Assembly (NCBI RefSeq): GCF_002163875.1
Contig: NZ_CP019333.1
Coordinates: forward strand, 1,804,864 to 1,868,863
Reading direction: 5' to 3'
Length of the DNA stretch: 64,000 nt
Origin: Gilvibacter sp. SZ-19
GTDB taxonomy: Bacteria > Bacteroidota > Bacteroidia > Flavobacteriales > Flavobacteriaceae
Shown: positions 15,393-36,890 of the stretch, piece by piece
How the letters are laid out: each line of letters begins with the position of its first letter
Position numbering within the stretch: the first letter of the stretch is position 1
Notes under the pieces: generated by a model
Databases searched by the model: none
The model's input: the letters and a program-made list of their open reading frames with translations, nothing else
What the model was told of the DNA's origin: nothing
Program-made: the position numbers and the translations under genes

Positions 15393-15497
15393 ATATTTTC
15401 TTGCATTTTAAAGGCTCATTCTAAAAATTCTCCTCCATTATGCGGGTTGATTTTTCGCATATTTCTTTGCGAAATCGTACATTTCGGTCACGTTCCA

Positions 15498-18884: not shown

Positions 18885-21800
18885 ATTATTCTTTTGTGCA
18901 GGCCTATTGAGCCTTGTGCTGATCTCTTGTAAAGACACCCCTGAGAACGAGCAAACAGAGGAGCTAGCCGCTACGCTGTTCACCAAGACAGACCCGGCAG
19001 AAACAGGATTTGACTTTACCAATACGGTGGTCAATCAGAAAGACTTCAATATTTTCAAATACCGCAACTTTTACAATGGTGGTGGGGTTGCCATCGGCGA
19101 TATCAATAACGATGGTTTAGCAGACATTTACATGACTGCCAATATGGGGCCCAACAAGCTTTTCTTAAACGAAGGAAATTTTAAGTTTAGAGATATAACC
19201 GATAGCGCTGGAGTTGCCGGAAACAAGCCTTGGTCTACTGGAGTAAATATGGTAGACATCAACCAAGATGGACTATTGGATATCTATGTGAGTAATGCCG
19301 GAAATATGGAAGGCGACAATCACGACAATGATCTTTATATCAACAACGGCGATTTGACCTTTACCGAAAAGGCAGAAGCATTCAATTTGGCAAAAACAGG
19401 TTTCAGTACGCATGCTACCTTCTTTGACTATGATAAAGACGGTGACCTTGATGCCTATATTTTGAACAACAGTAACATACCAGTGACCTCACTAGGCTTT
19501 GCGCATCAACGCGATGTTAGAGCGCAAGACTGGGACGTGCCTAAGATCTTTCGCGGAGTTGGTGATATGCTGCTTAGAAATGACGGCGACACCTTTACCG
19601 AGGTTAGTGAAGAGGCTGGTATATACGGAAGCCTCATCGGCTTTGGACTTGGAGTTATGGTCACCGATATTAACAACGATCTTTGGCCAGACATCTATGT
19701 TTCCAATGATTTTTACGAGCGCGATTACCTCTACATCAATAATCAAGACGGAACTTTTACGGAAGACATCAAGAACTGGATGAACCACCTTTGTCTGTCC
19801 GCCATGGGAATCGATATGGCAGACATCAACAACGACGGAAACCAAGATATCTTTATCACAGATATGCTACCCGATGGCGATCAGCGTGTAAAGTCCGTAA
19901 TGGAGTTCGAAGGCTACAATGTTTTTAAGTTGAAGCAGAGCAAGGATTTCTATCAACAATACATTCAGAATACACTACAGCTAAACAACGGAAACGGAAG
20001 TTTCTCCGAGATCGCCTATTACAGCGGAGTGTCTGCTACAGATTGGAGCTGGTCTGGCCTGATGTTCGACATGGACAACGACGGCTTCCGCGATATTTTT
20101 GTGACCAACGGGGTAAACCACGACCTTACCGACCTTGATTTTGTAGACTTCTTTGCCAACGAGATCATTCAAAAAATGGCCTTGACAGGAAAAAAGGAAG
20201 CTATAGACAGTATTATAGATAAGATGCCTGTGGTGCCAATTCCTAACTATGCGTACCACAATCAGAGAGATCTGACCTTTGACAATAAAGCCAACGCTTG
20301 GGGCCTGGGCGAACCAGGCCTGTCTAACGGTGCCGCTTATGGTGACTTGGACAACGACGGAGACTTGGATCTGGTGGTCAACAATGTGAACATGCCGTCT
20401 TTCCTGTATAGAAACAATTCCGAACAATTAAATAACAACTACGTCAAATTGCGTTTTAAAGGAACCGATAAGAACCGTTTTGCCGTTGGGACTCGTGTTC
20501 GGATGTATTATGACGGACAAGAAGTGTTGCAAGAGTTGATTCCGTCTAGAGGATTTCAATCGTCTATGGAACATCCAATGACCATTGGCCTAGGGGATGC
20601 CACCAAGATAGACTCGTTGCGAGTGATCTGGCCCGATGATCGCACAGAGTTGCGTACCGATCTTGCTGCAAACAGCACTTACGATTTTGATATGAATGCG
20701 GCTACCTTGACCTATCAGCCACCAAAACCGGTAGAACGCAAGACCTTGGTCACTGAGATGGCAACTTCTCTAGAACCCCATAAAGAGAACAATTACGAGG
20801 ACTTTGACTACGAAGGGATGATCTACAAAAAGGTCTCTCAAGAAGGTCCTGCGCTAGCTGTTGCAGATGTAAATGGCGATGGACACGAAGATGTTTTTAT
20901 TGGCGGAGCGAAAGGACAATCCGGCATGATCTATCTGCATTCAGGAAACGGCAATATGCGTGAAAGCAAACAACCAGCGCTCATCGCCGATATGGAATTA
21001 GAAGATACTGCGGCGAGCTTTTTTGATGCCGATGGCGATGGTGACCTGGATCTGATGGTCGGCTCCGGAGGGAATCAAGTGAACGAGAAAACCTCGGTCA
21101 CTGCTCGTCTGTATGTGAATAACGGCAACGGCATATTTCAAAAGTCTAGCTTAGCCTTACCTCCTGGAACCACCAATATCTCTTCTATTGCACCTTACGA
21201 CTACGATGGCGATGGCGATATGGATGTATTTTTAGGAGCTCGTTCTGTAATTGGTATCTACGGAATTGATCCTTCGTCTGTCTTTTTAGAGAATATGGGT
21301 GGCGGACAGTTTCAGATGGCTTCGGCCAAGGTGCTTAAAAATCTTTCCCGTCTGAGTGGAATGGTTACCGATGCCCAATGGATCGATCTTTTAGGCGATG
21401 AAACCAAGGAATTACTCACCATTTCAGACTGGGGTGCACCTATGGTATACGAGCTCAAAGATGGGGCTCTAAACATGGTTACTACAGATCTTGAAAACTT
21501 AACAGGTTGGTGGAATGCAGTAGAAGCTGCAGATCTAGATGGCGATGGAGACCTCGACCTGGTACTGGGTAACCAAGGAGAGAACTTGCACTACAAGCCT
21601 AGTGCCGAGCAACCCATGAAGATCTGGATCAGCGATTTTGACAATAATGGAACCATAGAACAACTAGTGACACAAAGACTAGATGGGCGTGATATGCCGA
21701 TCCATCAGAAGAAGGAGATCGTTAACCAAATGGTATTCCTAAAGAAAGAGAATTTACGAGCATCTGAATATGCCAAAAAGAGCATTCAGGAGCTCTTCAC

Positions 21801-22215
21801 TCCAGCAGTATTGGGCAGGGCTTTGGTAAAAGAGGTGGTGACCTCACAGAATACGGTTGCTATTAACGAGGGTAACGGAAGCTTTAAGTTTGTTGCTTTG
21901 CCTGCACGTGCTCAGCTTTCTTGTGTTTGTGGGATTCAATGCACCGATCTCAACAACGATGGTGCTCTAGACCTGCTCTTAGGAGGGAACAACTACGAGT
22001 TCAAGCCGCAGTATTCTCGTTTGGATGCCAATTACGGATCCGTATTGCTAAACGACGGTTCTGGGAATTTTGCTTGGCAAGATTATGCAGACTCTGGCTT
22101 CTTTGTAAAAGATGAGATCAAACATATGCAGATCTTTAAAGATGCCAACGGCAATCGCTTTATGATCACTGCTATCAATGATTCCGAACCTAAAATCCAT
22201 CGTTTGAATGACTAA
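18877..22215 (+). CDS. FG-GAP/VCBS repeat, ASPIC/UnbV lipoprotein 2
   Basis: Paralogue of the preceding gene: 1,112 residues, lipobox LISC (Cys18), Ca-binding loops such as DINNDGLADIYM and DYDGDGDMDVF, and a central ASPIC/UnbV segment (AVGTRVRMYYDGQ ... RGFQSS ... TIGLG). Sequence likeness to its neighbours is high in the first 450 residues (FYNGGGVAIGDIN, MGPNKLFLN, ATDWSW). Start 18877 (MNKLFFCAGL) is chosen because it gives a proper lipoprotein signal; it overlaps the previous stop by 8 bases. Surface or periplasmic location, partner and ligand are unknown. Confidence 0.9.
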   Translation: MNKLFFCAGLLSLVLISCKDTPENEQTEELAATLFTKTDPAETGFDFTNTVVNQKDFNIFKYRNFYNGGGVAIGDINNDGLADIYMTANMGPNKLFLNEGNFKFRDITDSAGVAGNKPWSTGVNMVDINQDGLLDIYVSNAGNMEGDNHDNDLYINNGDLTFTEKAEAFNLAKTGFSTHATFFDYDKDGDLDAYILNNSNIPVTSLGFAHQRDVRAQDWDVPKIFRGVGDMLLRNDGDTFTEVSEEAGIYGSLIGFGLGVMVTDINNDLWPDIYVSNDFYERDYLYINNQDGTFTEDIKNWMNHLCLSAMGIDMADINNDGNQDIFITDMLPDGDQRVKSVMEFEGYNVFKLKQSKDFYQQYIQNTLQLNNGNGSFSEIAYYSGVSATDWSWSGLMFDMDNDGFRDIFVTNGVNHDLTDLDFVDFFANEIIQKMALTGKKEAIDSIIDKMPVVPIPNYAYHNQRDLTFDNKANAWGLGEPGLSNGAAYGDLDNDGDLDLVVNNVNMPSFLYRNNSEQLNNNYVKLRFKGTDKNRFAVGTRVRMYYDGQEVLQELIPSRGFQSSMEHPMTIGLGDATKIDSLRVIWPDDRTELRTDLAANSTYDFDMNAATLTYQPPKPVERKTLVTEMATSLEPHKENNYEDFDYEGMIYKKVSQEGPALAVADVNGDGHEDVFIGGAKGQSGMIYLHSGNGNMRESKQPALIADMELEDTAASFFDADGDGDLDLMVGSGGNQVNEKTSVTARLYVNNGNGIFQKSSLALPPGTTNISSIAPYDYDGDGDMDVFLGARSVIGIYGIDPSSVFLENMGGGQFQMASAKVLKNLSRLSGMVTDAQWIDLLGDETKELLTISDWGAPMVYELKDGALNMVTTDLENLTGWWNAVEAADLDGDGDLDLVLGNQGENLHYKPSAEQPMKIWISDFDNNGTIEQLVTQRLDGRDMPIHQKKEIVNQMVFLKKENLRASEYAKKSIQELFTPAVLGRALVKEVVTSQNTVAINEGNGSFKFVALPARAQLSCVCGIQCTDLNNDGALDLLLGGNNYEFKPQYSRLDANYGSVLLNDGSGNFAWQDYADSGFFVKDEIKHMQIFKDANGNRFMITAINDSEPKIHRLND

Positions 22216-25200
22216 ATGGGCTTTGCTTGCCGGACTCTTCGTGTTTTGGTCCTGCGCAGAGCAAGACCAAAAACAGCAGACGGCCTTTAGTTTGCTCTCT
22301 GCCGAGCAAACGGGTATTTCCTTTGAAAATACTTTGGTAGAGCGCGACAGTTTGAACATATTGGACTATCTCTACTTTTATAATGGTGGTGGATTGGCTG
22401 TAGGCGATGTCAATGCAGATGGTCTCCCAGATGTCTATGCCACGGCCAATATGGGGCCTAACAAGCTCTATTACAACAAAGGAGGTTTTCATTTCGAAGA
22501 GGCTCCTGCTTCTGCAGGAGTAGCAGGAAATAGCAGTTGGAACACTGGTGCTGTAATGGCCGATGTCAACGCCGATGGCTTATTGGATATCTATGTGTGT
22601 GCAGTAGTTGGGATCAACGGCTTTACCGGCGGGCATGAACTCTTTATCAATCAAGGAGACGGGACCTTTAAAGAAGAAGCAGCCGCCTATGGATTGGATG
22701 CCCAGACCTATGGAACCTCTGCAGCCTTTCTAGACTATGACTTAGATGGAGATTTAGATGTCTATTTGCTGAACCATGCTGTGCATACCCAAGGTTCCTT
22801 TGGCCGATCCTCACTTAGAGAAAAGCGCAACGAAAAGACTGGCGATCGCCTGATGCGTAATGATAATGGAGTGTTTACCGATGTAAGCGAAGAAGCTGGA
22901 ATCTTTGGAGGTATTAGTAGTTACGGCCTTGGAGTGGCAGTGGCAGATTTTAATCTAGACGGATATCCCGATCTGTATATCGGCAACGATTTCCACGAAG
23001 ACGATTACTATTATCTCAACAATGGCGACGGCACCTTTAGCGAACAGCTACGCGATGCCTTTGGGCATGTTTCTCGTTTTTCTATGGGTAATGATGCTGC
23101 GGATATCAATAATGACGGGAGACCAGACCTGATCACTTTAGATATGCTGCCCGAAGACGAAACGGTTGTCAAAGCTTCAGAGGGTGACGAGAATTTCCAA
23201 ACCCAGCGCATGCGACTCTTGCAATACGGCTATCACTATCAGTTTAGTCGGAATATGTTGTTTTTGAATCAGCCAGATGGCAGTTTTATAGAAACAGCCT
23301 TAATGAGTGGAGTAGCTGCTACGGATTGGAGTTGGGCTGCATTGTTTCACGATTTTGACCAAGACGGTTATCAGGACCTCTGGATCTCAAACGGGATCCC
23401 AAAGCGTCCGAACGACCTTGATTTTATTCGATTTTTATCTGCCCAGGCCATAGATGAAAGCCGCGAGAGTAAAAAGCTTGTCGATCAAAAGGCTTTAGAT
23501 ATGATGCCTTCTGGAGCGGTTTCCAACAAGGTTTTTCGCGGTAGTGCTAGCATGCAATTTACCGATCAGACCCAAGCTTGGATCGGGCAGGATGCTCAAA
23601 TTGCTGGAGCTACCGCATTGGCCGATCTCGATGGAGATGGCGATATGGATGTGATAAGCAACGCCTTGAATGCACCGCTTTTGGTATATCGTAACGATCT
23701 GGACGCCAATGGAAATTATCTCCAATTGGAGCTAAAAGGTAGCGCCGCGAATCCATTCGCAATAGGTGCAAAGACCTATGTATATCAGCAAGGGAAAACC
23801 TATTACAAGGAACTGTATACGGCTCGGGGCTTTCAGTCCAGTAGTGAACCCCTTATTGAATTTGGGCTGCAAGACAGCAGTGCCATAGACTCTCTAGTTA
23901 TTGTTTGGCCAGAAGGAGAGGCTCAAGTACTTAAAGCAGTAAAGCCAAATCAGCGGCTGCGGATCAATAAAAATGATGAAACGCAGCAGTGGACTTTTAG
24001 CAAATCCAACCATACAACACTGTTTAGAGAGGCTAGTTCAGAACTTGGATTAGACTACACACATAAAGAAGATAATTACCTAGATTTTAACCGTCAAAAA
24101 CTCTTGCCTTACCGTTTGTCTGACAGAGGACCAGCTGTAGCCGTGGGCGATTGGAACAATGACGGGCAGCAAGAGCTGTTCATTGGAAGTTCCAAATTCG
24201 AAGAGCCGGCTTTATTTGAGTTAGGGGAAAGAGGTATGACAAAATTGGAAACACCTCTTTTAGCCCAAGACAAGGTTTATGAGGAAGTCGCCGCTGCTTT
24301 TGCAGATTTGGACGGTGACGGCACAGAAGAGCTGATTTTAGGTGCGGCTGGAGCCGATTTTAGTGGTCAGGCGCCTGCTTTGTTAGAAAGAGTGCTAACG
24401 GCAGATTCGGAGCAGTCAAGCGTTTTAGAGCAGACCTATTCTAACGCGAGCGTCGTTGCTCCTTTTGATTTTGATAACGATGGCGATCTGGACGTATTTG
24501 TGGGCGATTATGCCGTAACCAACGATTTTGGGAAGCAGCCTGAATCTTATTTGTTGGTCAATGAAGGCGGAGCATTAAAGCGCAGTGTACCGGCAGCATT
24601 TTCTTCTCTGGGGATGGTAACCGATGCCATCTGGCACGATTTTGACCAAGATGGACAAAAAGACCTTATTGTTGTTGGTGAGTGGATGGCTCCTGTCTTT
24701 TTAAAAGTGCAAGCTGGCTCCTTTACTCAAGTCGATCCGGTCAAATTCAACTTAAACGGATTATGGCAATTTATTCTGCCATTTGATATCGACGCCGATG
24801 GCGACTTGGACCTAGTATTGGGCAATTGGGGCTTGAATGCAAAATTCAAAGCTAGTGAGAGCGAACCGCTTTTGATGTATTATGCAGATTTTGACAATAA
24901 CGGGGCCACAGAAACAGTTTTGGCCCAATCTAGAGCGGGGACTTATTATCCACTATTGCCCTTAGACGAACTCGCAGGCCAAATGGTCAGCCTTAAAAAG
25001 AAGTTTCCAAATTTTGCTGACTTTGCAGGTAAATCCATAGAAGCAGTAATGGGTCGAGATGCTCTTGAAAGTGCTAAACGCTTTGAAGTACATCAATTAG
25101 CTTCTGGTTATTTGCGCAATGATTCTGGGAGTTATAAATTTATTCCCTTCGGGATGCAATTGCAGTTGGCGCCGCTTAAAGATGCCGTTGCTTTCGATTT

Positions 25201-25468
25201 TCTAAATCGAGGCGATGACCAATTGCTTTTAGGTGGGAACTACGACGGAGTGATCCCCTTTCATGGGCGCTATGACTCCCAGCCGGGAACCCTAATACTT
25301 CCTGGAGCGGATCCGCAGATAATTTGGCCGCAAGAATTGCAGTTTTTACGAAAATCCTTGCGACATTTGGAACTCATAAAATTAGGGAACAAGCCGTACC
25401 TGTTGGCTGTGTTCAATAACGACAAAACACAGATCTATGAAATACGCAGCTATGATAAAACCAATTAA
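22208..25468 (+). CDS. FG-GAP/VCBS repeat, ASPIC/UnbV lipoprotein 3
   Basis: Third paralogue, 1,086 residues, with a short lipoprotein signal (MTKWALLAGLFVFWSC, Cys16). FG-GAP loops are present (DVNADGLPDVY, DFDNDGDLDVF, DFDNNGATETV), with a central ASPIC/UnbV segment (AIGAKTYVYQQGKTY ... RGFQSS ... EFGLQ). It shares the landmarks YFYNGGGLAVGDVN, MGPNKLYYN and ATDWSW with copies 1 and 2. It overlaps copy 2 by 8 bases (ATGACTAA) and the next gene by 17-32 bases, so all are probably translated from one message. Confidence 0.9.
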   Translation: MTKWALLAGLFVFWSCAEQDQKQQTAFSLLSAEQTGISFENTLVERDSLNILDYLYFYNGGGLAVGDVNADGLPDVYATANMGPNKLYYNKGGFHFEEAPASAGVAGNSSWNTGAVMADVNADGLLDIYVCAVVGINGFTGGHELFINQGDGTFKEEAAAYGLDAQTYGTSAAFLDYDLDGDLDVYLLNHAVHTQGSFGRSSLREKRNEKTGDRLMRNDNGVFTDVSEEAGIFGGISSYGLGVAVADFNLDGYPDLYIGNDFHEDDYYYLNNGDGTFSEQLRDAFGHVSRFSMGNDAADINNDGRPDLITLDMLPEDETVVKASEGDENFQTQRMRLLQYGYHYQFSRNMLFLNQPDGSFIETALMSGVAATDWSWAALFHDFDQDGYQDLWISNGIPKRPNDLDFIRFLSAQAIDESRESKKLVDQKALDMMPSGAVSNKVFRGSASMQFTDQTQAWIGQDAQIAGATALADLDGDGDMDVISNALNAPLLVYRNDLDANGNYLQLELKGSAANPFAIGAKTYVYQQGKTYYKELYTARGFQSSSEPLIEFGLQDSSAIDSLVIVWPEGEAQVLKAVKPNQRLRINKNDETQQWTFSKSNHTTLFREASSELGLDYTHKEDNYLDFNRQKLLPYRLSDRGPAVAVGDWNNDGQQELFIGSSKFEEPALFELGERGMTKLETPLLAQDKVYEEVAAAFADLDGDGTEELILGAAGADFSGQAPALLERVLTADSEQSSVLEQTYSNASVVAPFDFDNDGDLDVFVGDYAVTNDFGKQPESYLLVNEGGALKRSVPAAFSSLGMVTDAIWHDFDQDGQKDLIVVGEWMAPVFLKVQAGSFTQVDPVKFNLNGLWQFILPFDIDADGDLDLVLGNWGLNAKFKASESEPLLMYYADFDNNGATETVLAQSRAGTYYPLLPLDELAGQMVSLKKKFPNFADFAGKSIEAVMGRDALESAKRFEVHQLASGYLRNDSGSYKFIPFGMQLQLAPLKDAVAFDFLNRGDDQLLLGGNYDGVIPFHGRYDSQPGTLILPGADPQIIWPQELQFLRKSLRHLELIKLGNKPYLLAVFNNDKTQIYEIRSYDKTN

Positions 25469-26786
25469 ACGCGCAGCTGCTAGCAGTTTGTTACTGCTGA
25501 GCTTATTTGCCTGTAAAGAGGCAGAACCTTTAGCTGTTTCCGCTAATGATTTTCAGGCTTCGGTAGAGAAGGTGACCCAAGTTATGGTACACGATATTTT
25601 CTCTCCACCGGTTGCCAGTAGAATCTATGCTTATCCTAATATTGCCGCTTATGAGATCATGGCGCAGCGTGATTCTCAATACAATTCTCTTGCTGGGCAA
25701 TTGCCTGGGCTAACGCCTATTCCTGCACTGAGGGATGAGCAGGTCAATGCTGGTGTAGCCGCATTGGTTGCTCATATGGAAGTGAGTAAGTCACTTATCT
25801 TTTCAGAAGATATGATGCAGTCATATGCAGATAGTATATACGCCCGTTGGAAAGAGATCAATCCGCAGCAATTCGAAGCCTCTAAAAACTATGGCTTGGC
25901 CGTGGCCAATCATATCAAAGCATGGTTAGACGGAGACAACTATAAGCAAACCCGTACCATGCCAAAGTTTACGGTAGATATTGATGATCCGGCGCGTTGG
26001 CAACCTACTCCTCCTGCTTATATGGAGGGAATAGAGCCGCATTGGAACAAGATCCGACCTATGGTGTTGGACTCTGCTGCACAGTTCAAGCCTATCAGTC
26101 ACCCAGCGTTTTCGTTAGAACCAGACAGTGATTTTTACAAAGAGCTGAAAGAGGTTTACGACATAAGCGAAAAGATCACTGCAGCTGGAGATAAATCCGA
26201 AGAGGTAGAGATCGCACAATTTTGGGATTGTAACCCTTATGTTTCGGTTACTCGTGGACACTTGATGTTTGCCACCAAAAAGATCACTCCTGGCGCTCAC
26301 TGGATGGGTATCACTAAGATTGCCTGTAAGCAAGCCGAGGCCGATCTGAACAAGACCATTTACGCCTACACTAAAACGGCTATCGCTTTGTTTGATGGAT
26401 TTATCAATTGTTGGGCCGAGAAGTACAGATCTAATCTAGTGCGTCCGGAAACACTCATAAACAAACATATCGACGAGAACTGGGAGCCGATTTTACAGAC
26501 GCCTCCCTTTCCTGAGTATACCAGCGGTCACTCCGTGATCTCTAATGCTGCTGCAACAGTGCTTACTGATATCTTTGGAGACGACTTTGCCTTTTTGGAC
26601 GACACAGAGTTGCCGTATGGCCTCCCGGTGCGTTCTTTCGAATCTTTTGATGCTGCAGCCAGAGAAGCCGCTATTAGCCGTATGTATGGTGGAATTCACT
26701 ACCGTGCCGCTGTTGAGAATGGGATAGATCAGGGCCAGCAGGTAGGTAATCTTGTAATTGAAAAACTAAACATGATCAATGAATAA
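25452..26786 (+). CDS. Vanadium-haloperoxidase-like PAP2 lipoprotein
   Basis: A 444-residue lipoprotein (lipobox LFAC, Cys21) with the three PAP2/vanadium-haloperoxidase motifs: K324-x6-R331-P, then SGH360, then S409-R410-x5-H416. These residues bind phosphate in acid phosphatases and vanadate in haloperoxidases. The long helical N-terminal part and motif spacing resemble the vanadium-dependent haloperoxidase-like group rather than short PAP2 phosphatases. Start 25452 is preferred; an ATG at 25437 is also in frame. Coupling to three ASPIC lipoproteins suggests the enzyme works with them outside the inner membrane. Whether it is a phosphatase or an oxidase cannot be decided from sequence. Confidence 0.82.
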   Translation: MIKPIKRAAASSLLLLSLFACKEAEPLAVSANDFQASVEKVTQVMVHDIFSPPVASRIYAYPNIAAYEIMAQRDSQYNSLAGQLPGLTPIPALRDEQVNAGVAALVAHMEVSKSLIFSEDMMQSYADSIYARWKEINPQQFEASKNYGLAVANHIKAWLDGDNYKQTRTMPKFTVDIDDPARWQPTPPAYMEGIEPHWNKIRPMVLDSAAQFKPISHPAFSLEPDSDFYKELKEVYDISEKITAAGDKSEEVEIAQFWDCNPYVSVTRGHLMFATKKITPGAHWMGITKIACKQAEADLNKTIYAYTKTAIALFDGFINCWAEKYRSNLVRPETLINKHIDENWEPILQTPPFPEYTSGHSVISNAAATVLTDIFGDDFAFLDDTELPYGLPVRSFESFDAAAREAAISRMYGGIHYRAAVENGIDQGQQVGNLVIEKLNMINE

Positions 26787-27693
26787 AAGTGGACTTTGGA
26801 CGGTATTGGCGCTTGCTTTAGTGCTGCTTTTGTCCTGGCACTTTTTGATCAAGCCCTACAATTACCGCATCAGTTTTGAAACCAAGGACCCGGCAGGATT
26901 GGTATATAGCAATCTTGGGGCTTGGATGGCCGTTAAAGGCGATGCAGACAGCTCGGCTGTAGAACTAATATCAAGGGTACCGTATTCGAGCTATCTACAA
27001 CGAGTACAACTCAAAGATTCCCTGTTTGAGTATCGATGGGAAATAGAACCGACATCAGATAGTACTACCAAGGTAACCGCCTACATTACCGATCTGAACA
27101 ATAAGTGGATCCAGAATTTCTATGCGCCTGTATACAAAACTGATTTTGTAAAACGCAGTATCCGCACAGTAGAAGATCTGGCCAAGGAGTGGGTTGATTA
27201 TCGGGAGCGCTATCGGGTAGGTCCGGTAATGCAAGCTGAGGTAAGTGGCCGCTATTGTGCTTATGTCTCAGTGCGAACCACGGCAAAACAAAAAGCCCGA
27301 ACCATGTTGGGCAATATTGCCGATGTCATGGGATACATCAACTCCAACAATTTGGAATTGCAAGGCGATCCTTTCTTGCAAGTCACGCAGTGGGACCAAA
27401 AGACAGACAGCATAGCTTTCGACTTTTGTTTCCCCATAAAGGCCTCAGACAGTTTGCCGCCATCCGAAGTAGTTAAGTTCAAAGAGGTTCAGGCTTTTAG
27501 CGGAATAAAGACTATTTTTAATGGGAATTACAGCATCTCTGACAAATCTTGGTATTGGTTGTTAAGACATGCTGAGAATAACAATATCGAGGTGGATCCC
27601 TTGCCTTTTGAGGTGTACAAGAACGACCCACATATGGGAGGAGACGCACTCCAATGGGAAGCAGAAGTTTATCTGCCTATCAAAAATCAATAA
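26779..27693 (+). CDS. Membrane-anchored SRPBCC/GyrI-like domain protein
   Basis: A 304-residue protein with one N-terminal membrane segment (about 7-24), a possible START/SRPBCC-like middle, and a C-terminal part resembling the GyrI/AraC effector-binding fold (pattern W..LL.HAENN....DPLPFEVYKNDP near the end). Proteins with GyrI-like domains bind small molecules; here the anchor puts the domain outside the cytoplasm. It overlaps the haloperoxidase-like gene by 8 bases (ATGAATAA) and is the last gene of the five-gene operon. Ligand unknown. Confidence 0.6.
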   Translation: MNKSGLWTVLALALVLLLSWHFLIKPYNYRISFETKDPAGLVYSNLGAWMAVKGDADSSAVELISRVPYSSYLQRVQLKDSLFEYRWEIEPTSDSTTKVTAYITDLNNKWIQNFYAPVYKTDFVKRSIRTVEDLAKEWVDYRERYRVGPVMQAEVSGRYCAYVSVRTTAKQKARTMLGNIADVMGYINSNNLELQGDPFLQVTQWDQKTDSIAFDFCFPIKASDSLPPSEVVKFKEVQAFSGIKTIFNGNYSISDKSWYWLLRHAENNNIEVDPLPFEVYKNDPHMGGDALQWEAEVYLPIKNQ

Positions 27694-27834: not shown

Positions 27835-29970
27835 ATGAAAAGTACTATGCGCTTGTTAGTCATGATATTTGCCGTGGCAATTGTTAGCATTTCTTGTTCT
27901 GAAACCGAGTTGCAAAGCAGTGTGAGTTCTCCGGATGGTAATCTGGTAGTTAACACTGGATTAAACGCGGCCGGGACCCCAGTGTATGCTGTGACTTTTA
28001 AAGGGAAAACTATAGTAGATACCTCTGCTGTTGGGTTCGAATTTAAAGACATGGAGTATCTAGGCAGGAACATGACCCTCACCGGAGCGAGTAGTAGTAC
28101 AATGGACGAAACCTGGGAAATGCCCTGGGGCGAACAGCGTTTGGTACAAAACACCTATAATGAGCTTAAACTGGACTACAGTGAACAAGGAGATGCTGCC
28201 AGAAAGTTTTCTATCGTGATTAGAGTTTATGACGACGGTCTGGGATTCCGATTTGAGTTCCCGGAACAAGAGCATATGAAGGAGGTGCTATTACTAGATG
28301 AAAACACAGAGTTTGCCCTTACGGGAGATCACAAGGTTTGGTGGTTACCCGGAGACTGGGACATATATGAGCAGTTATATACCAATTCAAAATTCAGTGA
28401 GATCGACGCCATTAGCATGCGCGACCATCCGGCACTTGTCGCCACTTATATTCCGGAGAATGCTGTGAACACTCCAGTGACCATGAAGACAGACAGCGGA
28501 TTGTATTTGAGCTTTCACGAGGCCGATCTGACCAACTATTCGGGCATGACCTTAAAGGTCGATACCCAGACCTATAAAATGACTTCTGAATTGGTAGGTT
28601 CTGAGCGTTTAGGTGGCAAGGCCAAATTAACGGTGCCTTTCAATACGCCGTGGCGAACGCTGCAGGTGGGAGAATCCGCAGGAGACCTCATTGAATCCAA
28701 TCTTATCGTAAATCTGAACGAACCCAACGAAATTGGCGATGTAAGCTATTTTACGCCTATGAAATATGTAGGGATCTGGTGGGAGATGCATATTGGTAAA
28801 TCCACCTGGGACATGGAAGGTAGCCAAGACATGAACACCTATATCGAAGGTGCTAAAAATTCATCTAGACACGGAGCTACCACAGAAAACGCCATGCGTT
28901 ATATAGACTTTGCCGCCGCCAATGGTATTAAAGGACTTTTGGTAGAGGGCTGGAACACGGGCTGGGACCAATGGATCAATACCACAGACAGAGAAGGAGT
29001 GTTTGACTTTATGACCCCTTATCCGGATTACGATTTTGACGCCGTAATGGCCTATGCAAAAGAAAAGGGAGTGGAAGTGATCATGCATCACGAGACCTCT
29101 GCAGCTCCGCGCACCTACGAAAAGCAAATGGAAGTGGCTTATAACTTTATGAAAGAGAATGGCATGAACTCGGTAAAGACGGGATACGTGGGTAAGATCA
29201 TTCCAGAAGGCGAATACCACCACGGCCAGTGGATGGTGAATCACTACCACAAGGTCTTGACCGAAGCAGCCAAAAAGAAGATTGCTATCAATGCGCATGA
29301 ACCCATTAAGGCTACTGGGAAGCGCAGAACATATCCGAACGCAATTTCCAGAGAAGGATTGCGCGGCCAAGAATTCAACGCTTGGTCACCTGATGGAGGC
29401 AACCCTCCGAGTCATTTGCCTACAGTCGCTTTTACCCGGATGCTTTCCGGACCAATTGACTTTACCCCTGGGGTTTTCAATATTAAATTCGACGAGTACA
29501 AGACTTCTAATCAGGTAAACACCACCTTGGCGCAACAATTAGCGCTTTATGTTGTGATCTATAGCCCGATCCAAATGGTTGCAGACCTGCCAGAACACTA
29601 TATGGTCAATGGCGAGATACACCCGGCTTTCCAATTTATTCGCGATGTGGCTGTAGATTGGGAACAGTCTATCGTTTTGGATGGAGAAGTGGGCGATTTT
29701 GTTGTAATCGCCAGACAAGAAAAAGGCAGTGAGAATTGGTTTGTCGGTGGAATCACAGGCGAGACTGTCCGAGCTCAAGAAGTTAGTTTTGATTTCTTGC
29801 CAGAAGGAAAGACCTATACAGCGACCATTTACAAAGATGGTGAGGGTGCTCATTGGAACGACAACCCCACAGCTTACGCTATAGAGACCATGGAGGTAAC
29901 TAAAGATACCAAAGTGACCATTGCTATGGCTGCTGGAGGAGGATTCGCGATTAGCCTTATGGCCAACTAA
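27835..29970 (+). CDS. susB: GH97 alpha-glucosidase, SusB-like (inverting type)
   Basis: A 711-residue lipoprotein (SISC lipobox near residue 21) predicted to release glucose from alpha-glucosides in the periplasm. The N-terminal beta-sandwich, central TIM barrel and C-terminal sheet are of family length. Candidate acidic residues are E371 (VEGWNTGW), E420 (HHETSA), E489 (NAHEP) and E513 (RGQEF). The spacings E420-E489-E513 (69 and 24) equal those of E439, E508 and E532 in Bacteroides SusB, which uses Glu as base and is calcium dependent. This argues against the retaining alpha-galactosidase branch. It starts a second glycosidase/transport group; the next gene begins 7 bases after its stop. 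Confidence 0.9.
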   Translation: MKSTMRLLVMIFAVAIVSISCSETELQSSVSSPDGNLVVNTGLNAAGTPVYAVTFKGKTIVDTSAVGFEFKDMEYLGRNMTLTGASSSTMDETWEMPWGEQRLVQNTYNELKLDYSEQGDAARKFSIVIRVYDDGLGFRFEFPEQEHMKEVLLLDENTEFALTGDHKVWWLPGDWDIYEQLYTNSKFSEIDAISMRDHPALVATYIPENAVNTPVTMKTDSGLYLSFHEADLTNYSGMTLKVDTQTYKMTSELVGSERLGGKAKLTVPFNTPWRTLQVGESAGDLIESNLIVNLNEPNEIGDVSYFTPMKYVGIWWEMHIGKSTWDMEGSQDMNTYIEGAKNSSRHGATTENAMRYIDFAAANGIKGLLVEGWNTGWDQWINTTDREGVFDFMTPYPDYDFDAVMAYAKEKGVEVIMHHETSAAPRTYEKQMEVAYNFMKENGMNSVKTGYVGKIIPEGEYHHGQWMVNHYHKVLTEAAKKKIAINAHEPIKATGKRRTYPNAISREGLRGQEFNAWSPDGGNPPSHLPTVAFTRMLSGPIDFTPGVFNIKFDEYKTSNQVNTTLAQQLALYVVIYSPIQMVADLPEHYMVNGEIHPAFQFIRDVAVDWEQSIVLDGEVGDFVVIARQEKGSENWFVGGITGETVRAQEVSFDFLPEGKTYTATIYKDGEGAHWNDNPTAYAIETMEVTKDTKVTIAMAAGGGFAISLMAN

Positions 29971-29977
29971 AGCAACT

Positions 29978-31162
29978 ATGTTAGCAGGGCAGCAAAGAAT
30001 AGCACACCAACTCCTGACCGATCTGGCTACTCTCAACGGATTTTTGGCCAGTACCCTAGACGAGGACAACTACAAGCGTATTTGGTCCAGAGATTCTATG
30101 GTCTGTGGTCTGGCGTCTTTGATAACCAAAGATGCTAAGCATTTAGAAGCTTTCAAAGCCTCCTTGCTCACCCTAGCCGAACATCAATCCGAAGCGGGTA
30201 TGATCCCATCTAATATTGATCCTCGCAGCGGAGAAGTGTCATTTGGGTCATTGGCCGGACGTATTGATGCCCATACTTGGTTTGTTCTGGGAGCTTGTCT
30301 CTATTACAAACACACTGGGGACGAAACCACTTGGAAAGTGCTAGAGCCTAAAGTGCTTAAAACTCGTGCGTATTTGGTCAACTTAGAGTTCAATAATAAA
30401 GGATGGATCTACACGCCCTTAAGTGGCAATTGGGCAGATGAATATCCTGTTCACGGCTATACACTTTACGATAATTTACTGCGGATGTTTGCCGAGAAGG
30501 CACTTTCAGATCTGGGCCTCGATATTGGGTTCGATATAGATCGTAAAACGCAGCTCAATTTTTGGCCAGAAGCCTCTAATTCAAATAAGGCTTACCACAA
30601 GGCGGGTTTTAAAGATGCTTTAGATAAAGGGGTAGAAAATTTCGCCGCCTTTCTTCTGCCGGGTTATTACGACCTGCGCTTTGACGCTGGCGGAAATGCC
30701 TTAGCCTTGTTGTATTGGCGCTTAAGCGCTGCACAAAAAGATGCATTGCGTAAAAAGGTCTCTTCTTTTAAAAGTGAAACAGGCGCAGCCTTGATACCCG
30801 CGTTTTGGCCTGTCATTACCGAGGACTCCTACGATTGGAATCTGCTCAAAACAAACTATTCCTACAGCTTTAAGAATCATCCGGGTGATTTTCACAACGG
30901 AGGAGTATGGCCCGTATGGATGGGACTTTTTACCCTCGGCTTAGCAGCACAAGGACAGACCGACTTAGTCGAGCAGCTCGTAACTGCCTTTGAAACCGAA
31001 ATAGCTACCAAACCTAACTGGGCTTATCAAGAGTATTTCAACCCTATTAGCAAGACTTTAGGAGGTAAGACACAAATGGGATACAGCGCCTCCGGAGTGA
31101 TCTTTATGCAAGAAGCGCTACGAATGGTAAAGGCTGAGCAAAGCAGTACCCTCTTCGATTAA
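29978..31162 (+). CDS. (alpha/alpha)6-barrel glycosidase, GH100 invertase/debranching-like
   Basis: A 394-residue protein without a signal peptide, so cytoplasmic. Motifs YKRIWSRDS, GRIDAHTWFVLGACLYYKHTGD-like helix, NWADEYPVHGYTLYD (D154) and FHNGGVWPVW (HNGG at 306-309) resemble the alkaline/neutral invertase family GH100 and, more distantly, glycogen-debranching amylo-alpha-1,6-glucosidases. D154 is a candidate acid. The start is placed at 29978, right after the GH97 stop. Beside an SLC45-type sugar importer, a cytoplasmic sucrose or alpha-glucoside hydrolase makes sense. The precise family and substrate are uncertain. Confidence 0.62.
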   Translation: MLAGQQRIAHQLLTDLATLNGFLASTLDEDNYKRIWSRDSMVCGLASLITKDAKHLEAFKASLLTLAEHQSEAGMIPSNIDPRSGEVSFGSLAGRIDAHTWFVLGACLYYKHTGDETTWKVLEPKVLKTRAYLVNLEFNNKGWIYTPLSGNWADEYPVHGYTLYDNLLRMFAEKALSDLGLDIGFDIDRKTQLNFWPEASNSNKAYHKAGFKDALDKGVENFAAFLLPGYYDLRFDAGGNALALLYWRLSAAQKDALRKKVSSFKSETGAALIPAFWPVITEDSYDWNLLKTNYSYSFKNHPGDFHNGGVWPVWMGLFTLGLAAQGQTDLVEQLVTAFETEIATKPNWAYQEYFNPISKTLGGKTQMGYSASGVIFMQEALRMVKAEQSSTLFD

Positions 31163-31286: not shown

Positions 31287-32813
31287 ATGAGTATCATTTC
31301 TAAGATTCCGAAGCCGCAACTATCTTTTTGGCAGATCTGGAACATGAATGTAGGATTCTTTGGGATCCAGTTTAGCTTTGGATTACAGCAAAGTGCGGTT
31401 AATCCGATCTTTGAATTCCTAGGCGCGCATCACGAAGAACTTCCACTACTCAACTTGGCGGGTCCAGTAACGGGTTTATTGATCCAACCAATTATTGGAG
31501 CGATATCTGACAAGACCTGGTCGCCAAAATGGGGTCGAAGAAAACCTTTCTTCCTCATAGGAGCCATCTTGGCCAGTTTGTGTTTGTTTGCGTTCCCGTT
31601 TAGTCCGGAACTATGGTTCGCCGTAGGATTACTTTGGCTCTTAGACGCGGCAAACAATACTGCCATGGAACCCTACCGTGCTTTTGTGGGTGATAAATTG
31701 CCTGAAAAACAATACACTTTTGGTTATCAAATGCAAAGCCTGTTCGTTGGGGCAGGTATTACCATTGCTAACTTTTCGCTTTTCTTGTTCCAAGATTGGT
31801 TTGGCGGTGGCGCCGAGGCTGCTGCTAGCGGCTCCAGTATTCCAACTTGGGTGTACTATTCGTTCTTTTTAGGCGCATTCGCCTCTATTGCCACTGTCCT
31901 ATGGTCGGTCTGGAAAACACCGGAAATACCACCTACAGACGAAGAATTGGCCGAGATCAGGGAATTCAATGAAGGTAAACCACATCCGCTGATTCAGGTT
32001 ATTAGTGCCTTAGTAGTAGTGCTTTCGGTGCCTGTTTTACTTGGGCTGGGAATCGCATACTTTTGGCCATACCTGAACGAGAATTACAATTTATTGGTTA
32101 TCATAATGCTGGTGATTGCCTTATTCTGGCTATCCTTTTTATATCGTCTTATCAAGAACAATCCAGACAATAAGAGTATCAAAAAATTTGGCGATCTTCT
32201 GGTCCCGCTCATGGAGACCTCCGAAGCCATCAAGGATATGCCCAAGTTCATGTGGAAACTATCTGCGGTCTACTTTTTTCAATGGTATGCCTTGTTCATT
32301 TATTGGCAGTTTATTTCTCCAATGCTCAAAGCTTCGCTTCCGGGACTTACTGCGGATGAGGCCTTAGCGCAAGTTGGACTAATGAACGGAACCTACAATT
32401 TTGTGACCATGATCGTAGCACTAGCTTTAGTGCCTTTTGCCAAGAAATTTGGTTCCAAAAAAGTATATGTGATCAGTTTATTCTTTACAGGTTTGGCGAT
32501 GTTGGCGCTGCCTTACATAAAGAACGAATATGTACTTCTCTTACCAATGATTCTATTTGGTATTGGTTGGGCTGCTATGATGGGAATTCCATATGCTATG
32601 GTTTCTAAAGTGATCCCTGCGGACCGTCGAGGTGTGTATATGGGAATCGTGAACATGATGATCGTTATTCCAATGCTTATTCAAACCGTATCCTTTGGGC
32701 CACTCATTGAATTTGCTTTAGGCAATAGTGCTATTAATGCCATTCTGTTTGCCGGAGTCTTTTTTATTATCGCTGGAGTTTTAGCCATGAGGCTTAAGGT
32801 ACAGCAAGACTAG
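31287..32813 (+). CDS. SLC45/GPH-type MFS transporter (sucrose/alpha-glucoside importer)
   Basis: A 508-residue membrane protein with about 12 segments. The N-terminal NPIFEFLGA region, D-K-T...KWGRRKPF loop between TM2 and TM3 and AANNTAMEPYRAFVGD resemble the SLC45/plant sucrose-proton symporter group within the GPH/MFS superfamily. Bacterial relatives carry sucrose, maltose or other alpha-glucosides. Flanked by a GH100-like enzyme, trehalase and fructokinase, it probably imports a disaccharide (sucrose or trehalose). A LacI-type site lies upstream. The next MFS gene starts 18 bases downstream. Confidence 0.82.
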   Translation: MSIISKIPKPQLSFWQIWNMNVGFFGIQFSFGLQQSAVNPIFEFLGAHHEELPLLNLAGPVTGLLIQPIIGAISDKTWSPKWGRRKPFFLIGAILASLCLFAFPFSPELWFAVGLLWLLDAANNTAMEPYRAFVGDKLPEKQYTFGYQMQSLFVGAGITIANFSLFLFQDWFGGGAEAAASGSSIPTWVYYSFFLGAFASIATVLWSVWKTPEIPPTDEELAEIREFNEGKPHPLIQVISALVVVLSVPVLLGLGIAYFWPYLNENYNLLVIIMLVIALFWLSFLYRLIKNNPDNKSIKKFGDLLVPLMETSEAIKDMPKFMWKLSAVYFFQWYALFIYWQFISPMLKASLPGLTADEALAQVGLMNGTYNFVTMIVALALVPFAKKFGSKKVYVISLFFTGLAMLALPYIKNEYVLLLPMILFGIGWAAMMGIPYAMVSKVIPADRRGVYMGIVNMMIVIPMLIQTVSFGPLIEFALGNSAINAILFAGVFFIIAGVLAMRLKVQQD

Positions 32814-32831: not shown

Positions 32832-34067
32832 ATGAAAGGACTCGGAATTAAAATAGCCCTACTGCTCAATTACTTTGTATTTGCCATCTTACTCAATAGC
32901 GTAGGGACTGTTATTTTACAGGTACAACGCAATTACGATATCACTAAAGATGCCGCTAGCGTATTAGAAGGGTTTAAAGACCTGCCCATTGCCATTACGT
33001 CATTTTTATTGGCCTCTTTCTTGCCAAAGATCGGTCTTAAAAGGTCCATGATCATTGGGTTGATCCTGGTTGCAGCCTGTTGCTGTTTAATGCCTTTTAC
33101 CGATGCATTTTGGTACTTCAAGGTGCTTTTTATGGCCATTGGAATTTCTTTTGCGTTGATCAAGGTCTCGGTATTTGCTACCATTGGATTGGTCACCGAC
33201 GATGCCAAACAACACGCCAGTTTTATGAGCGTTTTGGAGGCCTTTTTTATGGCCGGAATTCTAGTGGGGAATGTAGCCTTTAGTTTATTTGTGGACGATT
33301 CCAATCCGAAGTCACAAGAATGGTACAATATGTATTGGTTCTTAGGCGGATTGTCGCTTTTGGCCTTAATTGTATTGTGGTTCTCAAAACTAGATGAAAG
33401 TGCTGCCAAGATAGAATCACGCAGTTTAAAAGAAGATTTCTACGAGATGTTCAGGACCATCGCCAAACCTTTGGCCTTGGTCTTTATAGTGAGCGTTTTC
33501 TTGTACGTACTTATAGAACAAAGTTTCCAAACCTGGTTCCCGACCTTTTATAAAGATATTTTAAGCACGCCATCGTCTATGGCAATTCAGGCTGGAGCTG
33601 TTTTAGGTGGAGCGACCATGATTGGGCGTTTTGCCTCCGGAGCTGTTTTGGCCAGAATCAAATGGATTTATGTGCTATCGGTTTGTCTAATAACAGTTGC
33701 GGCTATCATTTTACTCGCCTTGCCTTTAGCAGGGACTAGTGAAGTTAGTGGCGATATCAGTTGGACCAATGCACCATTGGTAGTATACCTAATGCCATTA
33801 TTGGGCTTTTTCTTGGCGCCTATCTATCCGACAATAAACTCTACGATATTAAGCTCACAACCCAAGTATATGCACAGCTCCGTTTCTGGTTTGATCGTGA
33901 TCTTCTCTGCTTTAGGTGGAACCACAGGATCTATTATTACCGGCCATGTTTTTGAGGCCTATGACGGAGCAACTGCGTTCTATTTTGCTTTGGTTCCGGT
34001 GACTTTGATCTTAATTGCGATCTGGATCTTTTATCGAATGATCCAAAAGCAGGCATTGACTGCATAA
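32832..34067 (+). CDS. MFS transporter, substrate unknown
   Basis: A 411-residue, 12-segment MFS protein of a different subgroup from the preceding gene (N-terminus MKGLGIKIALLLNYFVFAIL; conserved LLASFLPKIGLKRSM loop 2-3). The overall look is like FHS-type or Bacteroidota sugar MFS permeases. It sits between an SLC45-type importer and a trehalase, with gaps of 18 and 16 bases, so it is one operon. It may import trehalose or export a product; I cannot tell which. Confidence 0.75.
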   Translation: MKGLGIKIALLLNYFVFAILLNSVGTVILQVQRNYDITKDAASVLEGFKDLPIAITSFLLASFLPKIGLKRSMIIGLILVAACCCLMPFTDAFWYFKVLFMAIGISFALIKVSVFATIGLVTDDAKQHASFMSVLEAFFMAGILVGNVAFSLFVDDSNPKSQEWYNMYWFLGGLSLLALIVLWFSKLDESAAKIESRSLKEDFYEMFRTIAKPLALVFIVSVFLYVLIEQSFQTWFPTFYKDILSTPSSMAIQAGAVLGGATMIGRFASGAVLARIKWIYVLSVCLITVAAIILLALPLAGTSEVSGDISWTNAPLVVYLMPLLGFFLAPIYPTINSTILSSQPKYMHSSVSGLIVIFSALGGTTGSIITGHVFEAYDGATAFYFALVPVTLILIAIWIFYRMIQKQALTA

Positions 34068-34083
34068 TTTAGCCGTACCACTC

Positions 34084-35949
34084 ATGGAGTTCAGACTAGA
34101 CATAGCTGCAACACTAGAAGCGCTCTTGGCCCAAGAAGACACCGATGGAGACAAAAAGATCACTATCAACGATAAGGGACCTAAGGCGTTTAAACTAAGC
34201 AATACAGCTGGCGAGGCCTATATGCTTAAAGGAACATATTTCCTGTCCAATCTTTTGCAGGAACTGGTTATTGCCCAACGAGAAGGGGCTAGCCAGACAG
34301 TGATTCCATTGAGCAAATTAGAAGAGCCTCCTGCCGATAGGGTTTCGCGTATGATCCGAGATTACTTTTGGGACGGTCTTACCCGCAGCCTAGATGCCGA
34401 TGGGATCGCCGCTTTGATCTCCGATACTAAGAATGAGTTTTTGGCGGAACAAGCCCTAAAGGTCTATGTGCCCTTTGGAGATAAGACCGCTTTAGAGTAC
34501 TATAAAGCGCTTGAGGCAGCTCATCCTGTTGAGGTGGTACAATTGCCAGAAGATATTACTCCAGAATATGTAGCTAGCTTGAATGAGCAACCCGGAATTC
34601 TCGCTTTGCGGCTTTACAAGCAAGAAGATACATTGCGAGGTGCGCCTTTTGTTGTTCCCGGTGGACGTTTTAACGAAATGTATGGCTGGGATTCCTATTT
34701 TGAGAGCATAGGTTTACATATTGACGGTAAGACGCATTTGGCGCTCTCTATGGCCGATAATTTTCAATACCAGATTCAGCATTACGGTAAGATCTTGAAT
34801 GCAAACAGGTCTTACTACCTCACCCGAACACAACCACCTTTCTATTCGAGTCAGATCCGAGAAGTATTTGAGAAGACTGGGGACGTCCAATGGCTGGCTT
34901 CCCATTTGGCCACGGCTATCACAGAATACGAAACTGTTTGGATGGTTCCGGGTAAACGTCTAACAGCTATCGGGCTTAACCGATTCTTAGCAGAAGGCAT
35001 TGGAATCACTCCAGAGGCAGAATCCGGTCATTACGATTCTGTGATTGGTCCGCACGCCCAGCAGGCTGGCATCAGCATACAAGAATACATCGACCAGTAC
35101 GCTAGTGGCACTATAAAGAATAAGGCTTTGGATACCTATTTTGTTCATGACAGAACGGTACGCGAGTCTGGCCACGATACTTCATACCGTCTGGAAGGAC
35201 GTTGTGCAGATCTGGTCTTGGTAGAACTCAATGCCTTTCTCTATAAATACGAAACCGATTTTGCCTATTTGATAAAAGAGGTTTTTGACGATCATTTCGT
35301 TCTTGGCGATAAGGTGTATCACAGCGGGCAATTCACAAGAGCTGCTGCAAAGAGAAAAGAATTGGTAGACCGTTATTTATGGAATGAGCCGGCAGGTACT
35401 TATTTAGATTACGACATCAACATCAATGAACAAGTAGCTTTTAATTCTGCAACCGCATTAACGCCACTTTGGTGTGGAATGGCTTCCCAGCAGCAAGCAC
35501 AGGCTTTAATAGAAAATCTGCTACCAAAACTCATGGAGCAAGGAGGAATTGCTTCTTGTGATGCAGCAAGTAGAGGAGCTATCGGGCCAGAGCGACCGCA
35601 GCGTCAATGGGATTACCCTAACGGTTGGGCTCCGCATCAGATGATGATCTGGAAAGGTTTACAAGCCTATGGTTTTCACAAGGAATTGCAGGAGGCCGTT
35701 TACCGATGGCTTTATATGATAGTGCGAAATGCTGCGGACTACAACGGTACTATTCCGGAGAAATACGACGTGGTAAAGGCCACGCATCTGGTCTTTGCAG
35801 AATACGGCAATGTAGGAACCGAATTTGAATATATTACCACAGAGGGCTTTGGGTGGATGAACGCCTCCTACCAATATGGCCTTACTTTTTTAAACGATCA
35901 ATTACGGGAGGAACTAAACCAACTCACGCCTCCAGAACAACTGTTTTAA
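34084..35949 (+). CDS. GH37 trehalase with fungal-type calcium-binding N-terminus
   Basis: Cytoplasmic enzyme (621 residues, no signal peptide) predicted to split trehalose into two glucoses. Trehalase signature 1 is PGGRFNEMYGWDSYF (192-206); signature 2 is QWDYPNGWAP (D510). RESGHD at 360-365 gives the probable acid D365, and E580 in GTEFEY before the GFGW block is the probable base. The N-terminus holds an EF-hand-like loop D19-T-D21-G-D23-KKITIN-D30 followed by KGPKAF, matching the calcium-binding head of fungal neutral trehalases. This is unusual beside ordinary bacterial TreF/TreA. The stop overlaps the next start by one base. Confidence 0.9.
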   Translation: MEFRLDIAATLEALLAQEDTDGDKKITINDKGPKAFKLSNTAGEAYMLKGTYFLSNLLQELVIAQREGASQTVIPLSKLEEPPADRVSRMIRDYFWDGLTRSLDADGIAALISDTKNEFLAEQALKVYVPFGDKTALEYYKALEAAHPVEVVQLPEDITPEYVASLNEQPGILALRLYKQEDTLRGAPFVVPGGRFNEMYGWDSYFESIGLHIDGKTHLALSMADNFQYQIQHYGKILNANRSYYLTRTQPPFYSSQIREVFEKTGDVQWLASHLATAITEYETVWMVPGKRLTAIGLNRFLAEGIGITPEAESGHYDSVIGPHAQQAGISIQEYIDQYASGTIKNKALDTYFVHDRTVRESGHDTSYRLEGRCADLVLVELNAFLYKYETDFAYLIKEVFDDHFVLGDKVYHSGQFTRAAAKRKELVDRYLWNEPAGTYLDYDININEQVAFNSATALTPLWCGMASQQQAQALIENLLPKLMEQGGIASCDAASRGAIGPERPQRQWDYPNGWAPHQMMIWKGLQAYGFHKELQEAVYRWLYMIVRNAADYNGTIPEKYDVVKATHLVFAEYGNVGTEFEYITTEGFGWMNASYQYGLTFLNDQLREELNQLTPPEQLF

Positions 35950-36890
35950 TGGATCAAAAACAACAACTCGATATCATTTGTGCAGGGGAAACCCTAATCG
36001 ATTTTATAGGAAATCAAAAAGAGCGACCTATAGCAGAGATAAAAGACTATCACAGATATTTAGGTGGGTCTCCAACAAATGTTGCTATGAATCTGGCTCG
36101 CTTTGGCTTAAATGTAGGCCTGATCGCCGCCATTGGTAAGGACGGCTTTGGCACCTACATCAAAGAGCGGTTTGAGGAAGCAGACATAAATCTCAATGGT
36201 TTGCAAGAAGTAGAAACGCACCCAACAACGGTCATCTTTGTGTCAAGAACCGAAGGTAGTCCAGAGTTTATACCTATGCGGGCCGCAGATTATCAGATTA
36301 GTGCCGAGCGGCTTCCTTTAGAAGATCTCAAAAGAACTCGACTTTTTCACTGTAGTTGTTTTGGACTTAGCCGTCAACCGGCAAGAGAAAGTATATTACA
36401 AGCAGCACAAATTGCCCATAGCGCTGGAGCTACGGTGAGCATTGATATCAATTACGCACCTTCTATTTGGCCAGATAGAGCAGAGGCTCTAGAAGTGGTA
36501 AAGAAATATTGTGCTTACGGCGCCCTTATAAAGGCAAGTCTAGACGATGTAGAACGTATTTTTGGCTATGTGCTCGAACCGAAAGAACTCTTTAAGACCT
36601 TACACGATTGGGGTGCTAAAATGATCTGTCTTACCCTAGGTAAAAAAGGGGCGATGTTATCGCAGCCGGGTGTAGAACCTATCGAATTGCCGGCAATGAA
36701 AGTAGAGAAGATCATGGATGCTACAGGAGCTGGAGATGCTTTTTGGAGCGGATTCCTATTTGCTTATTTAAAAGAGATGTCTCCCAGAGATTGTATGAGT
36801 ACAGGTCTTAAGACAGCAGCTATCAAACTTCAAAACGTGGGCCGTATTCCGGATTATGCAAGCATGCTGCACACGGTGCTAAATCTTTAG
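35949..36890 (+). CDS. PfkB-family carbohydrate kinase (fructokinase-like)
   Basis: A 313-residue sugar kinase of the ribokinase fold: N-terminal CAGETLIDF, GGSPTNVAMNLARFG substrate loop and C-terminal DATGAGDAFWSGF with the catalytic Asp. The GGSP/N form and length are typical of fructokinases. Start at 35949 (MDQKQQLDII), where ATG overlaps the trehalase TAA by one base; upstream in-frame codons lie inside trehalase. It probably phosphorylates the fructose released from sucrose by the cytoplasmic GH100-like enzyme. It is distinct from the kinase at 7751. Confidence 0.87.
   Translation: MDQKQQLDIICAGETLIDFIGNQKERPIAEIKDYHRYLGGSPTNVAMNLARFGLNVGLIAAIGKDGFGTYIKERFEEADINLNGLQEVETHPTTVIFVSRTEGSPEFIPMRAADYQISAERLPLEDLKRTRLFHCSCFGLSRQPARESILQAAQIAHSAGATVSIDINYAPSIWPDRAEALEVVKKYCAYGALIKASLDDVERIFGYVLEPKELFKTLHDWGAKMICLTLGKKGAMLSQPGVEPIELPAMKVEKIMDATGAGDAFWSGFLFAYLKEMSPRDCMSTGLKTAAIKLQNVGRIPDYASMLHTVLNL

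Follow-up and report, generated by a model that had tools for sequence, protein, structure and literature searches.

A Bacterial Trehalase of the Fungal Neutral Type With a Predicted Ca2+-Binding Head in the Bacteroidota

Introduction

A trehalase gene in the genome of the marine bacterium Gilvibacter sp. SZ-19 raises the question of why a bacterial enzyme should carry an N-terminal head that resembles the calcium-binding head of fungal neutral trehalases, what this head may do there, and in which direction the enzyme may have moved between bacteria and fungi. The gene lies in a stretch of 64,000 nucleotides, here called the window and numbered from its first letter. Yeast Nth1 has been set apart from the prokaryotic trehalases by its regulation through calcium and 14-3-3 proteins (PMC10847541), and, in the available part of a review on bacterial trehalases published in 2023, TreA and TreF are the only types listed within bacterial glycoside hydrolase family 37 (GH37; PMC10969515). 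The trehalase of the window is an unexceptional representative of a bacterial neutral-trehalase branch that is not mentioned in the available parts of these two papers. Bacterial neutral trehalases are not described in the open-licence literature that we searched, nor did we find experiments on any bacterial member.

Results and Discussion

Family and Class of the Trehalase

The open reading frame extends from an ATG at position 34084 to a TAA stop (35947-35949). The protein starts with MEFRLDIAATLEALL (longer opening stretch: MEFRLDIAATLEALLAQEDTDGDKKITINDKGPKAF), and no signal peptide is apparent when this N-terminus is read. The family, head, lid type, catalytic residues, absence of a tail and gene order reported here (Table 1) were all obtained by computation. 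Membership of GH37 is evident from the PF01204 profile (447.4 bits; Pfam cut-off 21), from the predicted catalytic Asp and Glu (D365 and E559), which are kept in all 131 aligned GH37 proteins, and from both signature motifs, i.e., PGGRFNEMYGWDSY at residue 192 and QWDYPNGWAP at residue 508 (motif definitions PGGRF.E.Y[GY]WD[ST]Y and QWD[YF]P[NY][GA]W[PA]P, taken from the available part of PMC10969515).

TABLE 1. Position of the trehalase gene, its predicted functional elements and its neighbors in the window.
Feature	Position	Strand	Basis or remark
GH97 alpha-glucosidase-family protein	27835..29970	+	PF10566, PF14508, PF14509
GH100-like (alkaline/neutral invertase family) protein	29921..31162	+	PF12899, 52.5 bits
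Second MFS sugar transporter	31287..32813	+	GPH sucrose/proton symporter as best NCBIfam name, not reaching its cut-off
MFS transporter, probable disaccharide importer	32832..34067	+	PF07690; stop 16 nt before trehalase
GH37 neutral-type trehalase, 621 aa	34084..35949	+	PF01204, PF07492, PDB match Nth1
Ca2+-binding head (residues 11-38), predicted	34114..34197	+	PF07492 match
Codon 365, Asp, predicted catalytic acid	35176..35178	+	Aligns with Nth1 Asp478 in RESGHDT
Codon 559, Glu, predicted catalytic base	35758..35760	+	Aligns with Nth1 Glu674 in EKYD
Neutral-type lid loop and next segment, residues 573-593 (EYGNVGTEFEYITTEGFGWMN)	35800..35862	+	
PfkB-family sugar kinase	35949..36890	+	PF00294, 160.7 bits

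Within GH37, an ordinary TreF is ruled out by the NCBIfam models together with the tree discussed below: the TreF model reaches 204.7 bits, under its cut-off of 512, and the TreA models reach 171.6 and 167.0 bits against cut-offs of 941 and 560, respectively. The top PDB match is yeast Nth1 (584 bits; 44% identity over 634 columns); E. coli TreA, like a related periplasmic trehalase, scores ~144-146 bits over partial length. The resemblance to Nth1 spans residues 5-620, the range given in a preliminary description of this DNA (34084-34200) being that of the head alone. E. coli TreF and TreA share with the window trehalase the GH37 catalytic domain, the motifs PGGRF.E.Y.WDSY and QWDYP.GWAP and the catalytic pair, but they are ~30% identical to it over about two thirds of its length, lack the head, possess a lid of the GGEYPLQDGFGW type and form a separate clade (support 100/100). 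The PF07492 match, the lid loop and the placement in the tree are those of the Nth1 type, the 14-3-3 phospho-tail being absent. The gene product is probably a working cytosolic alpha,alpha-trehalase of this neutral type, as predicted from its sequence.

Outside the window, the same genome contains a further PF01204 match of low score (44.9 bits), in a 457-aa frame (G000:C1:2422054-2422641) that is probably another (alpha/alpha)6 glycosidase.

The Predicted Ca2+-Binding Head and the Lid Loop

The profile PF07492 ("Neutral trehalase Ca2+ binding domain") matches the N-terminus with 51.0 bits (cut-off 25; E 1.2e-13; profile positions 1-28 of 30), and because this is well above the cut-off, the DxDxD in the head is not a chance motif. 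The preliminary description had likened residues 19-30 (D-T-D-G-D-K-K-I-T-I-N-D) and the following KGPKAF to the head of neutral trehalases and had suggested a search with this profile, the outcome of which confirms the likeness. By analogy with Nth1, the Ca2+ site is predicted to be formed by D19, D21, D23, K25 (through its backbone) and D30. The four Asp residues align with D114, D116, N118, and D125 of Nth1, which we take to be its Ca2+ ligands; position 25, a backbone ligand, is Lys versus Gln in Nth1, and position 24 is frequently Lys.

Among the 103 full-length head-bearing bacterial proteins, D19, D23, and D30 are each present in 103/103 and D21 in 102/103 (one Asn); I26 (103/103) and T27 (102/103) are also conserved in this alignment, whereas head positions 12, 13, 35, 37, and 39 are variable. 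It might be argued that the head is a vestige without a present role that has been retained by descent. However, the predicted Ca2+-site positions are as strict as the catalytic residues in these 103 proteins, down to an overall identity of 44-50% and amid variable neighbors, which makes a mere vestige hardly credible. No loss of the head was seen inside the head-bearing clade. G390 and G410, unlisted for PF07492, had been taken as headless, and reading reveals a DTDxDKKIT site in both.

The lid region of the window trehalase is of the neutral type (EYGNVGTEFEYITTEGFGWMNAS). It is in this region that the preliminary description had pointed to a GFGWMNAS resembling fungal neutral trehalases, and indeed the lid AEYGN-G-F...EGFGW-NAS is common to Nth1 and the window trehalase. 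Six residues of the lid (E573, Y574, G575, N576, G578, and F581) do not vary among 36 sequences. The neutral-type lid (EYGN.G...GFGW) occurs in 103/103 head-bearing proteins, and 27 headless proteins (25 from Bacteroidota plus E. coli TreA and TreF) have a GGEY..QDGFGW lid and neither the head nor the neutral lid. The earlier remark that TreA and TreF enzymes lack the head thus holds for both E. coli enzymes and for the 25 short Bacteroidota trehalases. Head and neutral lid, more than 500 residues apart, always co-occur, but they do so within one clade and not in 103 independent cases; their coupling could reflect the shared descent of that clade rather than a mechanical need.

Distribution in the Bacteroidota

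The head occurs once in the genome containing the window (one contig, 3.1 Mb). PF07492 was detected in 6 of 60 near relatives and in 18 of 395 genomes drawn from the whole of the Bacteroidota, 136 of which contain any PF01204 match; in the order of G088 it is present in 3 of 114 genomes and in that of G432 in 9 of 20. A check beyond the Bacteroidota yielded PF07492 in none of 14 control genomes. A scan of genome contigs revealed at least 499 loci encoding relatives, possibly including some headless ones; the best 80 of these are all labeled Flavobacteriaceae or other Bacteroidota. The nearest relative among the matches listed derives from a Gilvibacter MAG (80% identity). Because of these counts and the number of related loci, the head-bearing trehalase is to be seen as an established bacterial form and not as an oddity of one genome.

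A search of viral contigs yielded no relative, and carriage by phages or other viruses was accordingly rejected. Carriage by plasmids was rejected as well: plasmid relatives are just ~30-35% identical, none covers 80% of the query, and the head is left uncovered.

Gene Neighborhood and Cellular Location

The ATG of the PfkB kinase overlaps the stop of the trehalase by 1 nt, and SusC/SusD, LacI, GH32, and another PfkB are also encoded around the trehalase. The coupled kinase and the neighboring GH32, GH100, and GH97 proteins mark the neighborhood as a disaccharide/alpha-glucoside utilization region. A homologue of the second MFS transporter occurs in 50 of 98 related loci. Three successive large FG-GAP/ASPIC-UnbV proteins (1145, 1119, and 1086 aa; 15447-25468 of the window) are encoded after SusC/SusD and before a PAP2-domain protein, and homologues of them are found near the trehalase in about one third of related loci. 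In 30 of 98 related loci, a 304-aa protein without a Pfam match (26779-27693) is encoded together with the PAP2 protein.

Export was called by a simple rule that asks for a hydrophobic stretch and for a Met located 32 or more residues ahead of the Ca2+ site; L115 was included on visual inspection. On this basis, at least 18 of the 103 head-bearing proteins have an export signal or a lipoprotein signal, those of Aquimarina and Salinimicrobium and the forms f29, f41, and f45, which branch deeply, being among them. Exported forms such as those of Aquimarina (L055), Salinimicrobium marinum (L079), L011, and L116 agree with the window trehalase in head, lid and clade, but differ from it in their signal or lipoprotein peptide and in the lack of an upstream MFS importer. 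The exported forms, which arose several times, keep an intact Ca2+ site; among them are L011, L055, L061, L072, L079, L117, L163, L164, and L177.

For the cytosolic type, a script detected a homologue of the MFS transporter that is encoded next to the window trehalase directly upstream in 82 of the 84 loci with enough flank. L015 is an 83rd such locus, its stop-to-stop frame extending into the MFS gene; L110 has its homologue farther away, 2.5 kb upstream. None of the 18 exported-type loci has one. The location of the enzyme switches at least four times on the tree and the importer follows in about four of four independent pairs (sign test, p 0.125, significance being unreachable at n = 4). 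This pattern supports a pathway in which trehalose is either imported and then cleaved in the cytosol or cleaved outside.

Structure and Possible Role of the Head

Nth1 of Saccharomyces cerevisiae (GH37 with PF07492; PDB 5n6n, 5jta) shares with the window trehalase the Ca2+-binding head, the catalytic Asp/Glu and the fold. It has, however, an N-terminal tail of ~95 residues with the 14-3-3 phosphosites Ser60 and Ser83, whereas the window trehalase has only ~4 residues ahead of the region aligning with Nth1 residue 100, so that the 14-3-3-binding phospho-tail is absent. Furthermore, the bacterial enzyme is encoded in an operon with an importer, and a profile search of its genome for the 14-3-3 family (PF00244) yielded no member. 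In yeast, binding of 14-3-3 orients the Ca2+-binding domain of Nth1 and stabilizes its lid (PMC9523730, PMC10847541), and Ca2+ increases the activity of the enzyme (PMC10847541).

An AlphaFold2 model of the trehalase, built with 36 relatives, has a mean pLDDT of 91.8 (head 88-96), and its sole stretch with a pLDDT below 50 comprises residues 573-582, i.e., the lid. It aligns over its residues 1-621 with the 14-3-3-bound Nth1 chain 5n6n_C (Z 54.3, 605 residues aligned, rmsd 2.0), whereas three Nth1 structures without 14-3-3 align just from model residue 81-82 onward; in 5jta and 5nis, the head seems to be disordered. The docked head in the model may hint that the head sits in place unaided, a weak indication because 5n6n (released in 2017) was probably part of the AlphaFold2 training data.

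From these data we derive the following scheme. Trehalose would probably enter the cell through the MFS transporter encoded immediately upstream and be cleaved in the cytosol into two glucoses by a trehalase to which the PfkB kinase appears to be translationally coupled. The head would hold one EF-hand-like Ca2+ site at the five positions predicted above and would brace the flexible active-site lid, as the Ca2+-binding domain does in Nth1. Because both the phospho-tail and, in this genome, 14-3-3 proteins are absent, the head would most likely dock alone, without a partner protein, with Ca2+ being mainly a structural ion rather than a cytosolic signal. The main argument for the latter is that the Ca2+ site is kept in the exported forms, where cytosolic Ca2+ signaling is irrelevant.

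The preliminary description had proposed instead that calcium controls the enzyme, which would make the head a true switch by which cytosolic Ca2+ turns a bacterial trehalase on and off. The conservation of the entire Ca2+ site and the increase of Nth1 activity with Ca2+ (PMC10847541) are consistent with such a switch. We nevertheless think it unlikely, since exported relatives retain the Ca2+ site through the repeated changes of location, and Ca2+ outside the cytoplasm is no bacterial intracellular signal; moreover, there is neither a partner tail nor a 14-3-3 protein, and control by gene expression is already possible via the importer. An importer-fed, cytosolic Nth1-type trehalase, the lid of which is braced by a Ca2+-stabilized head, is therefore the explanation that we consider, as a whole, to be fairly probable, although a modulation of the cytosolic forms by Ca2+ is still conceivable.

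A bacterial class that possesses the calcium head but not the 14-3-3 tail means that the two halves of Nth1 regulation come apart. It represents a classic 14-3-3 client in a naturally occurring form that is free of 14-3-3 and provides a simple system for asking what the calcium site does alone.

Evolutionary Origin

A tree of 85 proteins separates the headless group, including the E. coli enzymes, from the head-bearing group at 100/100, and the window trehalase joins Nth1 and not TreA/TreF with support of 100/98 to 100/100. A tree had been suggested beforehand as a check on the class, and it places the window trehalase outside TreF/TreA, as do the sequence and the lid loop. Nth1, the single fungal and the single eukaryotic sequence in all trees, falls within the head-bearing bacteria, beside L112 (G088) at 99/97. 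A tree of 37 proteins has it as the sister of L177 plus L112/L176 (98/92), and this placement is retained at 95/90 when the head columns and the long row of a Granulicella protein are removed.

The preliminary description had also considered the head a possible mark of horizontal exchange with a eukaryote. As an unusual or recent transfer into this genome, this is not borne out: the form is widespread in the Bacteroidota, Nth1 is nested in bacteria (with the one fungal sequence and mixed results of the AU test), and the G+C content of the gene (0.458) is like that of its flanks (0.445 and 0.438). Together with the conserved operon in relatives, the latter is the ground on which a recent transfer from a eukaryote into this genome was rejected. 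An acquisition of the enzyme by the Bacteroidota from a fungus or other eukaryote would agree with the AU test on all data, in which a clade of the 29 bacterial rows held together without Nth1 was not rejected (p 0.166), and the trees contain a single eukaryotic sequence. The nested position of Nth1 at 99/97, 98/92, and 95/90 (bootstrap 95-99), the rejection of the same clade in the set from which the head and the longest outgroup had been removed (p 0.031), the wide bacterial diversity, exported forms included, and a G+C content equal to that of the flanks argue against it, and we regard this direction as quite improbable. The value of p 0.031 is merely suggestive because the group was picked after seeing the first tree.

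A transfer from bacteria to fungi is thus the direction that we favor, as a reading of the trees and not as a result. It is conceivable, and we propose this tentatively, that the fungal 14-3-3-regulated neutral trehalase goes back to an enzyme of the Bacteroidota whose Ca2+ head served as a structural brace, which in some lineages lay outside the cytoplasm. With the phospho-tail as a fungal addition, docking of the head would have become conditional, and an element of stability would have turned into a switch. With the bacterial branch at hand, the source of the fungal enzyme becomes a testable question.

The Granulicella protein removed above is encoded on an acidobacterial plasmid (pACIX901 of Granulicella tundricola; L160:2755-4422). 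It is a headless trehalase with a third lid type and represents, on a very long branch, the nearest headless relative of the head-bearing clade.
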